Of a stretch of 64,000 bases of DNA, positions 12,074 to 60,799 are shown one piece after another. Position numbers and translations under genes: made by a program. Position 1 is the stretch's first letter, and each line of letters begins with the position of its first letter. Under the pieces are notes generated by a model that was given only the letters and a program-made list of their open reading frames with translations, was not told the origin of the DNA and searched no databases. The DNA comes from Alphaproteobacteria bacterium SO-S41 (lineage in GTDB: Bacteria; Pseudomonadota; Alphaproteobacteria; Micropepsales; Micropepsaceae): the NCBI GenBank assembly GCA_019670725.1, contig AP024629.1, forward strand, positions 1,736,001 through 1,800,000, read 5' to 3'.

Positions 12074-12715
12074 CTACTCCTTGGCCTCGGCGGCCTTGTT
12101 CGGTTTTGGCTTTTCAGCCTTCGGTTTCTCTTCCGGCTCGCCGCGGAGCACCGCGACCTTGTTCATGAAGCCGATATCGTCGCTCATCGCGAGAAAGGGC
12201 GCGGCGTCGGCCATCGCGTCGAGCAAGGGCTCGAGCCAGGCGGCGTCGTCCTTGTTGAAATTGCCGAGCACGTGGCCGGTGACGCGCGCCTTGTCGCCGG
12301 GATGGGCGATGCCGATTCGCACGCGGCGAAAGTCGGGTCCCAGCATCGCGGCGATGGAGCGGATGCCGTTATGGCCGGCGGCGCCGCCGCCGGTGCGGGC
12401 GCGGATCTTGCCGGCGGCGAGGTCGAGCTCGTCATAGAGGACGACGATGTCGCTGGGATCGATCCGATAGAAATGCGCGGCGGCCTGCACGGCTTCGCCC
12501 GAGAGATTCATGTAAGTCTGGGGCTTCAGCGCGAGGACCTTGAAGCGGCCCTTGGGCGTGTCGAGGAAGCCTTCGGCGACCTCCGCCTTGAACTGCTTCT
12601 TCCATGGGCCGAAGCGGTGGCGGGACGCGATCGCGTCCACCGCCATAAAGCCGACATTGTGACGATGCCCGGCATAGTCGCGGCCGGGATTGCCGAGACC
12701 GACGAGCAGCAGCAT
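12074..12715 (-). CDS. pth: Peptidyl-tRNA hydrolase
   Basis: Releases tRNA from peptidyl-tRNA that has dropped off ribosomes. The core has GLGNPGRDYAGHRHNVGF, which contains the catalytic His of the HNVG motif, plus PQTYMNLSGEAV and VVLYDELDL. At 213 residues it is slightly longer than usual because of a Lys/Glu/Pro-rich tail of about 25 residues (EEKPKAEKPKPNKAAE), probably disordered. It lies between rplY and ychF, the usual alphaproteobacterial order. Confidence 0.96.
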   Translation of the reverse strand: MLLLVGLGNPGRDYAGHRHNVGFMAVDAIASRHRFGPWKKQFKAEVAEGFLDTPKGRFKVLALKPQTYMNLSGEAVQAAAHFYRIDPSDIVVLYDELDLAAGKIRARTGGGAAGHNGIRSIAAMLGPDFRRVRIGIAHPGDKARVTGHVLGNFNKDDAAWLEPLLDAMADAAPFLAMSDDIGFMNKVAVLRGEPEEKPKAEKPKPNKAAEAKE

Positions 12716-14754: not shown

Positions 14755-15645
14755 TCAGGGCGCGGGTTTGTTGAAATCGCTGGCGATGATTTCGGCGATC
14801 GAGCGCGCCGCGGCCCCGCCGGCGAGCGCCGCCTGCTCGGCCCAGGTCTTGCGGACGGATTCGGTCGGCAGCGCATTCTCCTGGCGGGCTTCGCCGAGAT
14901 TCTTCCCGTCCGGCGCATAGACTGTCCAGATGAGCGAGATCGAGGTGCGGCCGCCCTGGTCGGGGCCGAGGGTGAGGACGCCGGTGATCGCGTAGGTTTC
15001 CTTGGTTGCGGCGTCGCTCATGCGCACGCCCATATTAGCGAGGCTCTGCACGACGGCGCGGCGCAAAGGTTCGGCCTGGCCCGAGGCGGGGGCGGTGATG
15101 GCTTTGACATAGGCGGCGGGCGTGCGCTTCGGCCTGGGCGGCGGGGCGGTCGCTGGGGCCGCGCCGGGAGCGGCCGGCGCGGCAGCGGTCGCATCCGTGG
15201 GCGGCGTGCTGCCGAGGCGGCCGAGGCTTTCCGACAGCGCGCGGGCGGCGCCGACGGCGATGAGCGAGAGGTCGCCGGCGGCACTGAACTGGGCGATCGC
15301 CGTCGCACCGTCCGCCAGGACGAAATCGACGGCGCCGGGTTTGGCGGTGCCCGTGAGTGTGAGGCTTTCCAGCGGCACGGCATCGGCCGAGGCGAGGACA
15401 TCGAGCGCGGCGGCGTTGGTGGCGATGCCCTTGCGCAAGGCGGCTTCATCGGCCGGCGCGAGACCTGCGATGGCGCCGATATAGACGGAGCGCTCGCCAA
15501 GCACGCCGCCGACGATCTTGGGATCGCCGGTCCCGCGGAAGGGCTGCGGTGTCGCGAAGGGGTCGGGGATGCCGGTCGCGGCTTCCATGCCGCCGCAAGC
15601 GGCGAGCAGGAGGGCGGCGAGGGCGAAGAGAAAACTGCGAATCAT
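14755..15645 (-). CDS. Predicted lipoprotein, unknown function
   Basis: 296 residues with a clear lipobox (LLLAAC, Cys17) after a short signal. The rest mixes alpha and beta segments with an Ala/Pro-rich linker (TAAAPAAPGAAPATAPPPRPKR) around residues 155-180. The C-terminal half is a domain of about 110 residues (YAITGVLTLGPDQGGRTSISLIWTVYAPDG). It is translationally coupled to pgeF by an ATGA overlap and forms the last gene of lgt-midA-pgeF-lipoprotein. Since lgt makes the lipoprotein modification, the pairing is suggestive but not a functional proof. Confidence 0.75.
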   Translation of the reverse strand: MIRSFLFALAALLLAACGGMEAATGIPDPFATPQPFRGTGDPKIVGGVLGERSVYIGAIAGLAPADEAALRKGIATNAAALDVLASADAVPLESLTLTGTAKPGAVDFVLADGATAIAQFSAAGDLSLIAVGAARALSESLGRLGSTPPTDATAAAPAAPGAAPATAPPPRPKRTPAAYVKAITAPASGQAEPLRRAVVQSLANMGVRMSDAATKETYAITGVLTLGPDQGGRTSISLIWTVYAPDGKNLGEARQENALPTESVRKTWAEQAALAGGAAARSIAEIIASDFNKPAP

Positions 15646-16409
15646 GGGGTCAGCGCGATGGCGGAGATGTTGCGGCCGTAGTCGGGTTCGCGGCGGTGCG
15701 TCGTGCGGCGGTAGGAGAAGAAATCACCATCGACATAGGTGTCGATGCCGCAATCGTCGAGGTTCTGGATGCCGGCGGCGCGGAGGCGGTGTGTGAGGTA
15801 GCCGGGCAAGTCGAACTGGAATTTGCCGTCTGCCGCGCCGGGGATGAACCAGGCGGCATTGGCGGGGGCGGCCTCGACGAAGCGGTCGCGGAAGTCGGCG
15901 CCGACCTCGTAGGAGGCCTGACGGATCGTCGGGCCGATCGCGGCGGCGATGCGGCTGCGGTTGGCGCCCAGCGCCGTCATGGCATCGATGGTCGCCTCGG
16001 CGACGCCGGCGAAGGCGCCCTTCCAGCCGGCATGGCAGGCGCCGACGACGCCGGCGGCGATGTCGGCGAAGAGGATGGGCGTGCAGTCCGCCGCGAGAAT
16101 GCCGAGGGCGAGACCGGGCACACGCGTGACCATGCCGTCGGCCTGGGGGCGGTCATCCGTCCAACCCTTGGTGACGGTGAGTACGATGGGCGAGTGGATC
16201 TGGTAGAGCGACAGCAGGTTGGCGGGCGCGATGCCCAGCAGGGTCGCGACGCGGGCGCGGTTTTCCGCGACATGGGCGGGATTGTCGTTCGAGCCGGGGC
16301 CGCAATTGAGGCTTTCATAGACGCCGGTCGAGACGCCGCCGATACGGCCGAAAAAGCCGTGGGCGATGCCGTGCTGACGCGCCAGGAGTTCGCTGCGCAG
16401 GATCCTCAT
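15642..16409 (-). CDS. pgeF: Peptidoglycan editing factor PgeF / laccase-domain protein (YfiH)
   Basis: A 255-residue YfiH/DUF152 protein; E. coli PgeF corrects peptidoglycan precursor composition, and relatives act as purine nucleoside-cleaving or polyphenol oxidase enzymes. The metal site is intact: His72 (YQIHS), Cys109 (AADCTPI) and His126 (ACHAGWKG). ATG 16409 overlaps the midA stop (ATGA), and its own stop overlaps the next gene in the same way. It lies in the lgt-midA-pgeF cluster common in alphaproteobacteria. Confidence 0.92.
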   Translation of the reverse strand: MRILRSELLARQHGIAHGFFGRIGGVSTGVYESLNCGPGSNDNPAHVAENRARVATLLGIAPANLLSLYQIHSPIVLTVTKGWTDDRPQADGMVTRVPGLALGILAADCTPILFADIAAGVVGACHAGWKGAFAGVAEATIDAMTALGANRSRIAAAIGPTIRQASYEVGADFRDRFVEAAPANAAWFIPGAADGKFQFDLPGYLTHRLRAAGIQNLDDCGIDTYVDGDFFSYRRTTHRREPDYGRNISAIALTP

Positions 16410-17542
16410 GCGGCGAACCCTGCGGGAACGGGACCGCCGGGTCCAGTGAGCGCCATCGCTTTGAAGAGGGTTCCCATGCCGCCGGCGTCGATCAGCCGGG
16501 TGAGCGCGGCGGCGATGGCGGCGGATTGGTCCGGGCGGGCGCGGATGAGGGCCTGGGCGCGGGCTTCAGTGCCGAGCGCAGTTAGGAAGGCGCCCTGGGT
16601 GACCGGGCCGTGGGCTGTGGCGCTGGAGGATTCGGCGAGCGCCTGGAAGTCGACATGGGCGGTGAGGTCGGCCTCGCCGGGGGCTTCAAGCGGATTGGTG
16701 AAGCGGTGGGCTTTGACGGCCTGGAGCGTATCGCCGAATGCGGTGGCGGCGTGGCCGTAGTCGATAATGAGAGCCAGGCCGGTGTGGGTGTTGAGCGCTG
16801 TGCCGATCTGGGCGCCGATCTCTCGGGTGGGTTCGTTGAGTTCGAAGATGGCTTCCTCGTTTCTCCCATCGTTATCCCGGCCGGAGCGAAGCGGAGAGCC
16901 GGGACCTACATGACTGGGCGCGGTATCCAGTCTCCTGGGTCCCGGGTCTCGGACGCCTCCGGCGGCCTCGCCCGGGATGACGGTAGAGGAAAGTCCCCAA
17001 GTGAAGTTGCCCGCGTCATCGAGCGCCACGAAGCGTTCGTGCCAGGCGCCATTGGTGCGCACGAACTGGCGGATGGGGAGGGCGTCGAAGAATTCGTTGG
17101 CGACGAGATAGAGCGGGGCGTCGAGCGGGATGGCGTCGAAGTTGTCGGCCCATGACGGCGTGTGACCCTTGAGCGTTTCCACCTGACGGGCGCGAAGCGC
17201 CGGGCTGGTTTCGACGAGGGTGAGTTGAGCCGCATCAATGAAGGCCGGGCGGAGTTTGGCGGCGCGCAGTATGTCGGCCATCAGCGTGCCGCGGCCGGGG
17301 CCGAGTTCGACGAGATGGATGCGGGTCGGCGATCCCGCGCGTTCCCAATGATCGATGAGGCAAAGCCCGATCATCTCACCGAAAAGCTGGCTGATCTCGG
17401 GCGCGGTGGTGAAGTCGCCCGCCGCGCCGAGCGGGTCGCGCGTCGCGTAATAATGCGCATTGGCGAGCGCCATGAAACGGTCGAGACGCAGCGGCCCGTC
17501 GGCGCGGATCAACCCCGCCAGATGACGGGCGAATGCCGTCAT
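16406..17542 (-). CDS. midA: MidA/NDUFAF7-type SAM-dependent methyltransferase with an in-frame repeat insertion
   Basis: A class I methyltransferase of the DUF185/NDUFAF7 family, whose mitochondrial member methylates an arginine of complex I. I chose ATG 17542 because it overlaps the lgt stop as ATGA; the frame is open to 17599. The N-terminus (HYYATRDPLGAAGDFTTAPE), the SAM loop VELGPGRGT and the substrate motif NEFFDALPIRQF are intact. Residues about 186-226 are unlike the family: they are the translation of a palindromic repeat (16870-16982). Normal family sequence resumes afterwards at YGHA and LTAHVDF. The gene therefore appears functional with an inserted loop of about 40 residues. Confidence 0.9.
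   Translation of the reverse strand: MTAFARHLAGLIRADGPLRLDRFMALANAHYYATRDPLGAAGDFTTAPEISQLFGEMIGLCLIDHWERAGSPTRIHLVELGPGRGTLMADILRAAKLRPAFIDAAQLTLVETSPALRARQVETLKGHTPSWADNFDAIPLDAPLYLVANEFFDALPIRQFVRTNGAWHERFVALDDAGNFTWGLSSTVIPGEAAGGVRDPGPRRLDTAPSHVGPGSPLRSGRDNDGRNEEAIFELNEPTREIGAQIGTALNTHTGLALIIDYGHAATAFGDTLQAVKAHRFTNPLEAPGEADLTAHVDFQALAESSSATAHGPVTQGAFLTALGTEARAQALIRARPDQSAAIAAALTRLIDAGGMGTLFKAMALTGPGGPVPAGFAA
16870..16982. repeat. Intergenic-type palindromic repeat located inside midA
   Basis: A 113-base element bounded by near-perfect inverted ends (CGTTATCCCGG at the left, CCCGGGATGACG at the right), with internal pairing such as CCGGAGCGAAGCGGAGAGCCGG. Its text matches the kind of dispersed element normally seen between alphaproteobacterial genes. 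Here it is translated in frame, minus strand, as VIPGEAAGGVRDPG and onward without any stop codon. Confidence 0.8.
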
Positions 17543-18417
17543 GCGGTCTTCGGCCGGTGGGACATCGCCCACCAGGCGAAGAAGAGCGCGCCAACCCACA
17601 TCCCGGCGCTCAGCAACTGGCCCATCGAGATCGTGCCGTCGCCGATGAGCTGATCGGAGTCGCGGAAGATCTCGGAGATGATGCGGAAGAGGCCGTAGAA
17701 GAAGAGGAAGGCGGAGATGATGACACCGGGCCGGTCGAAGGCGCGGAAGCGTGTCGCGAGCAGGCGCAGGATAAGGAAGAGCACGACGCCTTCGAGCATG
17801 GCCTCATAGAGCTGGCTCGGATGACGCGGGAAGGGGCCGGGGTCTGAGACCATATTGCCGGCGGCGTCGTAGCGGGTGGGGAAGACCATGGCCCACGGCA
17901 CGTCGGTCACCTTGCCCCAGAGCTCGCCGTTGACGAAGTTGGCGATGCGGCCCGTGAAGAGGCCGATCGGCGCGACGCTGGCGACGACATCGCCGAAGCG
18001 CACCATGTCGATGCCCTTGCGCCACGAGAACAGCATCACCGCGATGATCACGCCGATGAGGCCGCCGTGGAAGGACATGCCGCCCTCCCAGATCTTCAGC
18101 CACTGCATCGGGTCGCTGTAGAGGGTGGGCTGGTAGATGAGGCCGTAGAAGAGGATGAAGCCGATGCGGCCGCCCAGGATGATGCCGAGCGTCGCCCAGA
18201 CGATGAAATCGTCGACCTGGATGGGGGTGAGCGGCGGGCTGCCCCATTTCGTCCAGAAGCGCGCGGTGTTGATGAGGCGGACCGCATACCACCAGCCCAG
18301 CAGGATGCCCGCCACGTAAGCGAGGGCGTACCAGCGGATCGCCAACGGGCCGATCTCGACCAGGACCGGGTCGATCATCGGATAGGGGATCACCAGAGCG
18401 GGCAGAAGCTGCATCAT
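17539..18417 (-). CDS. lgt: Prolipoprotein diacylglyceryl transferase
   Basis: A 292-residue inner-membrane enzyme that moves diacylglycerol from phosphatidylglycerol onto the lipobox cysteine of prolipoproteins. The Lgt signature GRIANFVNGELWGK is present, as are the YALAYVAGILLGWWY helix with the conserved arginine region after it, and SFHGGLIG, the H-G-G-L motif of the active site. It is first in the coupled run lgt-midA-pgeF-lipoprotein. MM at the start leaves 18417 or 18414 as the start. It is divergent from ubiK. Confidence 0.97.
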   Translation of the reverse strand: MMQLLPALVIPYPMIDPVLVEIGPLAIRWYALAYVAGILLGWWYAVRLINTARFWTKWGSPPLTPIQVDDFIVWATLGIILGGRIGFILFYGLIYQPTLYSDPMQWLKIWEGGMSFHGGLIGVIIAVMLFSWRKGIDMVRFGDVVASVAPIGLFTGRIANFVNGELWGKVTDVPWAMVFPTRYDAAGNMVSDPGPFPRHPSQLYEAMLEGVVLFLILRLLATRFRAFDRPGVIISAFLFFYGLFRIISEIFRDSDQLIGDGTISMGQLLSAGMWVGALFFAWWAMSHRPKTA

Positions 18418-45871: not shown

Positions 45872-45958
45872 CTGATCCGGCCTCAATCCCCCGCATAATG
45901 GCGGGAGAAGATGGCTTCGCGGTCGTTCGACGGGCGAAAGGTCCGCTGACTCGGTTAG

Positions 45959-46027
45959 GCCGGTGCGCTGCATCCGCCCCCTCCACCGCTTCGCGGTCCC
46001 CCTCCCCCGTAAACGGGGGAGGATCAA
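45959..46027. repeat. Repeat family B, copy 1
   Basis: A 69-base unit starting GGCCGGTGCGCTGCATCCGC, with an internal CCGCTTCGCGG hairpin and a CCCCCGTAAACGGGGG hairpin. Copy 2 at 47039-47107 is nearly identical in the same orientation. Together they flank the two small secreted-protein genes. Confidence 0.75.
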
Positions 46028-47038: not shown

Positions 47039-47107
47039 GGCCGGTGCGCTGCATCCGCCCCCTCCACCGCTGCGCGGTCCCCCTCCCCCGCAGGCGGGGG
47101 AGGATCA
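47039..47107. repeat. Repeat family B, copy 2
   Basis: Direct repeat of 45959-46027 with about four differences in 69 bases. It lies 7 bases downstream of the uvrB stop and its CCCCCGCAGGCGGGGG hairpin may act as a uvrB terminator. Confidence 0.75.
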
Positions 47108-47114
47108 AGGGGAG

Positions 47115-60448: not shown

Positions 60449-60799
60449 ATGAAGTGGATGGCCCTGCTGATCGGTTCCGCAGCGCTGGCGGCGAGCGCCC
60501 AGGCGGCGACGCTGGACGAGTTGAAGGACCGCTATCGCGAGCTTTGCCTGCACGAGGCGGGCGGTGACATGATGGGGCCCAAACTCTGCAAGTGCCTGGT
60601 CAAGAAGATCGACAAATCCGCGAGCGAGGACCAGTTGCCGCTGATCTATGCGGTGCTGGTGGCGGATGACGAGGATCTGGACGATGCCGCGGCGGCGGCC
60701 GAGACGGGCCTGACGGTCGAGAACTACGTCACGCTACGCGACCAGACGCGCGATATGGAGACGTCGCAGCGCAAGGCCTGCAGCAAGGAAGTGAAGTAG
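60449..60799 (+). CDS. Small secreted hypothetical protein
   Basis: 116 residues with a signal peptide (MKWMALLIGSAALAASAQAA). The mature part has three to four cysteines (LCLHEAGGDMMGPKLCKCLV and RKACSKEV) and is helical and acidic. It lies 13 bases after aspC and converges on a LuxR-type gene. Family not recognised; periplasmic location inferred. Confidence 0.65.
   Translation: MKWMALLIGSAALAASAQAATLDELKDRYRELCLHEAGGDMMGPKLCKCLVKKIDKSASEDQLPLIYAVLVADDEDLDDAAAAAETGLTVENYVTLRDQTRDMETSQRKACSKEVK

Follow-up and report, generated by a model that had tools for sequence, protein, structure and literature searches.

The midA gene analyzed here raises the question of how a dispersed palindromic repeat came to lie in frame within a conserved enzyme gene, and whether the protein segment it encodes is tolerated or useful. 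The gene is located between lgt and a pgeF-type gene (Table 1) in the window, i.e. the whole stretch of 64,000 nucleotides of DNA that was analyzed.

Table 1. Features of the midA locus. Positions are those of the window; both REP-like units of the midA copy were delimited by eye against the 36-copy consensus.
Feature	Position	Strand	Characteristics
Dispersed palindromic element	16870..16982	+	Two CGTC-tagged REP-like units forming an inverted dimer; blast, covariance model, 36-copy alignment
First REP-like unit	16870..16908	+	CGTT tag, ATCCCGGC/GCCGGGAC stem, ~16-nt loop
Second REP-like unit, inverted	16934..16982	-	CGTC tag, ATCCCGGG/CCCGGGAC stem, long loop, CCA tail
midA (Methyltransf_28, PF02636; COG1565/NDUFAF7 type)	16406..17542	-	378 codons plus stop; open throughout despite the element
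lgt, prolipoprotein diacylglyceryl transferase	17539..18417	-	TIGR00544, PF01790; 4-base overlap with midA start
pgeF-type gene, downstream of midA	15642..16409	-	TIGR00726, PF02578; 4-base overlap of its ATG with the midA stop

A repeat-derived segment in MidA

The predicted MidA matches PF02636 with an E value of 2.8e-60 and gives no match in NCBIfam. Its relatives in the PDB, by sequence and by fold, are 1zkd, 5ztz (MidA) and 4f3n. Like MidA/NDUFAF7 proteins it possesses the Methyltransf_28 domain and the conserved SAM motif; methylation of the NDUFS2/NuoD subunit of complex I would be its putative activity. An alternative in-frame GTG start is present at position 17599. The genome contains one MidA; when the protein was searched against this genome, 11 further hits were obtained, all of them on copies of the repeat.

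The midA copy of the element comprises 113 bp with the ends CGTTATCCCGG from 16870 and CCCGGGATGACG up to 16982. Its core (16871-16981, 111 bp) corresponds to MidA residues 188-224 on the minus strand (VIPGEAAGGVRDPGPRRLDTAPSHVGPGSPLRSGRDN). The frame used in midA is free of stops, which occur in the other two frames of that strand. A preliminary description of this DNA had placed the repeat ends at the same bases, as the sequence check bore out; its estimate of about 40 residues near residue 186, without a stop codon or frameshift, was right to within 3, as 37 residues are encoded.

The segment from RFV to NEP comprises 69 amino acids in this protein vs 36-43 in all of the 80 named relatives that were kept out of 242 found. 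The loop is absent from these relatives; they do not carry the same residues as ordinary family sequence, and other copies of the element exist in the genome. Among the 80 kept, the closest named MidA proteins belong to three unclassified alphaproteobacterial MAGs (61-64% identity); next come one Hyphomicrobiales MAG and numerous Sphingomonas at about 50%. By MidA similarity the organism would thus be a relative of Sphingomonadales. In a second sample, MidA was matched in 57 of 60 family genomes, present one included. The matched span is 326-367 residues in the 54 others whose MidA lies on a single contig, vs 378 residues here; besides the present genome, this count leaves aside two in which MidA is split or partial. 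Subtraction of the 37 encoded residues from 69 leaves 32, which is below the 36-43 of the relatives. Thus a few ancestral residues were probably replaced or lost, and the sequence comparison suggests that the event was probably not a clean insertion. Since the residual segment is shorter than that of the relatives, the exact empty site cannot be reconstructed.

Structure and copy number of the element

The preliminary description had assumed a dispersed repeat, and genome searches established this. A blast search with the 113 bases against one contig of 4,443,179 bases (4.44-Mb genome) identified at least 40 genomic places including the midA copy, with E values of at most 9.8e-22 and 40 of 105 candidates scored. 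A covariance model built from 36 aligned copies identified at least 63 distinct places. This number is a lower bound, as 150 of 9373 candidates were scored, and it was obtained from 94 matches after removal of 31 reverse-strand reads of the same places. The E values are 4e-6 or below for 62 of the 63 places; one match is weak (2.7e-4). All 63 places fit the dimer model, where the query itself is a dimer and single units lie outside the search. Copy lengths fall into classes of 111-116 bp (43 copies), 125-127 bp (10) and 101-103 bp (6), with 4 copies of other length. The paired structure, which was drawn from the same alignment, is kept in 98.1% of cells vs 97.1% in shuffles, and one inner pair is altered on both sides in 7 of the 36 aligned copies. 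An Rfam scan of 16300-17700 gave nothing at E values up to 1. Within the window, 60669-60753 and 12204-12312 match the element model weakly (E 0.051 and 0.095) and might be degraded copies or chance matches.

Among 60 sampled genomes of the family, the present one included, 25 contain matches to the element model at E values of at most 1e-6. At this threshold the present genome has 60 matches and four genus mates have 7, 4, 0 and 0, all counts including reverse-strand reads. The element is best described as a dispersed repeat of the non-autonomous kind, in which CGTC-tagged REP-like units are arranged as an inverted dimer and their loops are unusually long. It appears to have multiplied in the present lineage, and its usual place of landing or survival would be just downstream of genes.

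Genomic placement and orientation

Genes were called by means of a codon model, for which the window served as training set (68 genes, 83% coding). This model was also used for the genic calls, and in the case of midA and the GH57-domain gene the interrupted gene was additionally examined for homology. Most of the 63 copies are intergenic (53), eight touch a gene end and two are located inside genes, namely midA and the GH57-domain gene. Both genic copies are in frame. Two of 63 copies inside genes, compared with 83% coding sequence in the window, corresponds to a binomial probability of 4e-45. This rarity inside genes reflects strong filtering or site choice. Among relatives, 14 copies picked from the best matches were placed in five other genomes: 13 are intergenic, one lies over a gene end and none is inside a gene.

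With a tolerance of 15 bp, 31 of the 63 copies lie in gaps between same-direction genes, 21 in convergent and 4 in divergent gaps, and 7 overlap a gene. The control, a small set of 38 window gaps of at least 30 bp, contains 25 same-direction, 4 convergent and 9 divergent gaps. Convergent gaps are enriched (Fisher 0.004) and divergent gaps are depleted (Fisher 0.033). The gaps are generally short, and of the 52 copies with a neighboring gene 3' end, 47 are no more than 40 bp away from it. Between same-direction genes, the element and the genes occupy opposite strands in 26 of 31 cases (binomial 0.0002), a bias noticed post hoc. Both genic copies (2/2) share this orientation.

Five predicted genes start in or just before an element (L176:1980-2933, L178:1150-2175, L180:2042-2920, L029:1999-2613 and L017:897-2093). 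In each of them the best Pfam match starts at residue 50 or beyond, downstream of the element. As the domains begin after the element, these five gene-end overlaps are probably 5' leaders or start miscalls, and the copies may code for N-terminal extensions. Since long false frames are common in GC-rich sequence, long open frames across many copies were not counted as genes.

This placement also bears on a function of the midA copy at the RNA or DNA level, for instance as an attenuator or mRNA 3'-end element in the lgt-midA-pgeF row, with translation being incidental. The short distance to 3' ends would be expected of such a function, as would the strong fold of the transcribed strand (-69.1 kcal/mol, z -3.24) and the orientation of the genic copies, which is that of most copies between same-direction genes. 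However, the copies are not followed by a T run (T in at most 27 of 62 copies at any of the first 20 positions) and are thus unlike intrinsic terminators, and a hairpin within midA should be opened by translating ribosomes. A regulatory role of this kind is considered unlikely, although somewhat less so than the other alternatives to a tolerated insert discussed below.

The linker of a GH57-domain protein and further palindromic repeats

The second genic copy is part of a gene (1320265-1322331) whose product of 689 residues has a GH57 domain, and is positioned between this domain and a C-terminal region without Pfam match. The same strand of the element is read in both genes, in frame 1 in the GH57 gene and in frame 0 in midA. 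The linker comprises 93 residues here. Among 19 relatives used for comparison, 18 have a linker of 61-80 residues, and the remaining one, the genus mate G002, has 113. In G002 the linker (L209:2645-2828) holds a different palindromic repeat of 184 bp in frame, with the ends GATCCTCCCC and GGGGAGGATC. Parts of this repeat recur in all five genus genomes, and no second full-length copy was found across them. An assignment of the G002 linker to the first element (model E 0.17) was rejected, as its DNA reads as another repeat family. By sequence, one linker would thus have received an in-frame insert in each of two species, from a different repeat family each time, with one of the species represented by a draft sister genome. 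Together with the midA case, this suggests that exposed linkers in the genus keep collecting palindromic repeats.

A second palindromic family of the CCCCCTCC..GGGGGAGGATC type is represented in the window by a pair of sequences that are 94% alike (45958-46027 and 47039-47108); further partial copies occur both in this genome and in those of genus mates. The 184-bp repeat in the G002 linker belongs to this family. In the present genome 22 copies of this family were placed, of which 18 are intergenic and 3 lie over a gene end. The remaining copy is inside a very weakly scored frame and was not trusted as genic.

Mobility of the element

Target-site duplications were searched for in 40 copies, of which 38 had readable ends; identical flanks of at least 4 bases occur in none of the 38. 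Identical flanks of 3 bases occur in 3 of 38 copies, with a mean of 0.6 and a maximum of 4 in shuffles. As no target-site duplication of at least 4 bases was found, transposition as such is not demonstrated. The genome contains no match to Y1_Tnp (PF01797), which is matched in 5 of 14 control genomes, and a RAYT was ruled out as mobilizer of the element on this basis. For end and flank statistics one of the 63 copies was left out for its poor end match. Nesting of the copies in a larger hairpin was rejected: flank pairing was 4.89 vs 4.81 in shuffles, with 304 of 1000 shuffles as high, and the duplex energy of 62 copies was equaled or undercut by 63 of 300 shuffles. The flanks of a few individual copies of the present genome (G000), at 542136, 3259180 and 2786051, can pair well across the element.

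Taken together, the placement, orientation and linker data could be read as transcription-linked insertion of REP dimers near 3' ends in one orientation to transcription, which the rare genic copies share, with repeated hits of linkers, even by unrelated repeat families in sister species, as a source of flexible loops that operates without RAYT. This proposal is tentative and its probability is low. If true, REP dimers would form a standing supply of new flexible protein loops in free-living bacteria.

Constraint on MidA and fate of the insert

Downstream of the insert, the divergence of midA from its counterparts in three genus mates amounts to 0.22-0.31, 0.19-0.20 and 0.41-0.49 at codon positions 1, 2 and 3, respectively. 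Pairs of mates without the insert differ in the same region by 0.19-0.29, 0.15-0.24 and 0.42-0.51. The part of midA behind the insert remains under coding constraint, with a pattern like that of the insert-free mates, and family sequence resumes there as the preliminary description had stated. The C-terminal protein identity to the three mates is 60, 66 and 68%, vs 62, 67 and 75% among the mates; this slightly lower identity of the sequences would leave room for some relaxation in MidA.

Among the 43 copies of the full-length class, only one is more diverged from the consensus than the midA copy, which has 9 differences at 95 conserved columns; the 20 of 63 copies outside 110-116 bp were left out of this ranking. 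This high divergence suggests that the insertion is probably old and that the frame has been kept open since. Divergence as a measure of age presumes a common master, and origin from a divergent subfamily would also explain the midA copy.

The residues of the SAM motif (E79, G81-G85) are invariant among 23 aligned sequences. An AlphaFold model of MidA based on these 23 sequences has a mean pLDDT of 83.9, and its core superimposes on 1zkd and 5ztz with a TM score of 0.81 each. Residues 194-205 and 211-227, between the strands 180-184 and 231-235, have pLDDT values below 50, which are expected as no other aligned row has insert residues and hence point weakly to disorder. According to the model, most of the insert is probably a floppy, low-confidence loop of an intact MidA fold.

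These data also speak to an interrupted gene on its way to becoming a pseudogene, with a frame left open by accident in a GC-rich genome. The used frame of the element is stop-free in 29 of 43 copies, so that an open frame is not rare, and the C-terminal identity of MidA is slightly low. Against this, the divergence of the midA copy indicates that time has probably elapsed, the codon positions behind the insert show the same pattern as in intact relatives, and the SAM-motif residues and the fold core are kept, which makes decay of midA very improbable. Even a little less probable is an adaptive insert, i.e. a repeat-coded loop that alters partner binding or activity of MidA: the element has persisted in frame in a single-copy gene, and two genes have such inserts, with one linker hit by two repeat families in two species, but the insert is modeled as a low-confidence loop, both sites are variable segments, as neutral tolerance predicts, and a known function for the loop was not found. 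The preliminary description had suggested that repeats can donate new loops to such a methyltransferase; as to a useful loop, tolerance explains the present evidence no less well than adaptation does.

With high confidence, the midA locus is thus regarded as a tolerated in-frame insertion of a REP-like dimer, which would be translated as a flexible loop of an enzyme whose core is under selection. One copy of the element would have entered midA at a variable segment between two beta strands, with loss of a few ancestral residues. Given a compatible length and frame, whether original or acquired, its translation would have added 37 residues to the protein in the form of a flexible loop. Purifying selection would have continued to act on the enzyme core, with the insert being tolerated and mostly neutral. 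The data directly establish the repeat family, the lack of the insert in relatives, the open frame, the coding constraint behind the insert and the second genic copy in frame; for the midA case we infer the translation of the insert, its flexibility and neutrality, and the movement of the repeat. The locus provides a clean and checkable example of how a dispersed repeat becomes protein sequence in a single-copy enzyme, in a family with solved structures.

Comparison with known palindromic repeats

Two of the hosts named below, S. alaskensis and E. lithoralis, belong to the genera Sphingopyxis and Erythrobacter, respectively. According to the available text of Di Nocera et al. 2013 (PMC3733652), CGTC-tagged REPs are mainly alphaproteobacterial and most of their hosts are free-living. 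GTAG and CGTC REPs were found there within coding regions of several species, and genes of S. alaskensis and E. lithoralis carry intragenic REPs of unstated type. Tolerance of intragenic REPs was ascribed to flexible linkers or loops. The preliminary description had regarded an intragenic repeat as notable for a free-living alphaproteobacterium. This does not hold, since CGTC REPs have been reported from such hosts and intragenic REPs, CGTC type included, have been known since 2013 (PMC3733652); the midA insert is no first. The available text of PMC3733652 does not name midA or the GH57 gene as REP hosts. Among the papers listed, titles and abstract openings mention no repeat insert in MidA, and the insert is not claimed as unreported.

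As described in PMC3733652, CGTC REPs share with the element the CGTC/TGTC tag, the ATCCCGG stem, the CCA tail and the arrangement as inverted dimers. They also share the position near gene 3' ends, the rarity between divergent genes and the presence of some intragenic copies; the location of the element mostly in same-direction and convergent gaps matches theirs. CGTC REPs lack a dedicated transposase (PMC3733652), and the present genome likewise has no PF01797 match for a tyrosine transposase. In 62 copies the left base before GTC is C (44) or T (16), and the mirrored base on the right is G (43) or A (19); the midA copy has CGTT at one end and CGTC at the other. The tail of CGTC REPs, mostly CCA, is found as GGGACCCA at both consensus units, with one tail of the midA copy reading CTA. 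The stem of CGTC REPs comprises 8-9 bp starting from complementary A-T pairs (PMC3733652); ATCCCGGC/GCCGGGAC of the element pairs at 7 of 8 consensus positions, and the outermost A-T reads A-C in most of the 36 aligned copies. The loops comprise 4-5 nt in CGTC REPs, although a few species deviate from this length (PMC3733652), compared with about 16 and 23 nt in the element. Because of these longer loops the units are called REP-like and placed outside CGTC-1 to CGTC-4. The GTAG REP/RAYT system differs from the element, whose consensus lacks a GTAG end and whose genome lacks a Y1 transposase.

In-frame fusions of RPE, ERIC and other repeats have been described (PMC10969869, PMC2229807). Based on the available parts of these papers, the parallel to the Rickettsia palindromic elements drawn in the preliminary description stands in part. 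RPEs and the element are alike in being palindromic, about 100-150 bp long and in frame inside unrelated conserved genes. However, nearly half of the RPEs are reported to be genic, and RPEs are reported to carry a conserved peptide (PMC10969869, PMC2229807), compared with 2 of 63 genic copies here and the use of different frames of the element in the two genes. A tie between the element and RPEs exists only through the CGTC tag as described in PMC3733652, where RPE-4 and RPE-6 of R. conorii are CGTC REPs.

The doubly hit GH57 linker resembles recB of X. campestris and X. oryzae, in which different REPs lie at about one site (PMC3733652). The recB case concerns Xanthomonas, whereas the GH57 inserts belong to unrelated palindromic families. 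Of the present findings, this linker with its two different inserts and the bias in orientation are of greater interest and deserve a wider survey. Together, the midA and GH57 cases make the question raised by Rickettsia, whether such inserts are tolerated or useful, testable beyond obligate parasites.
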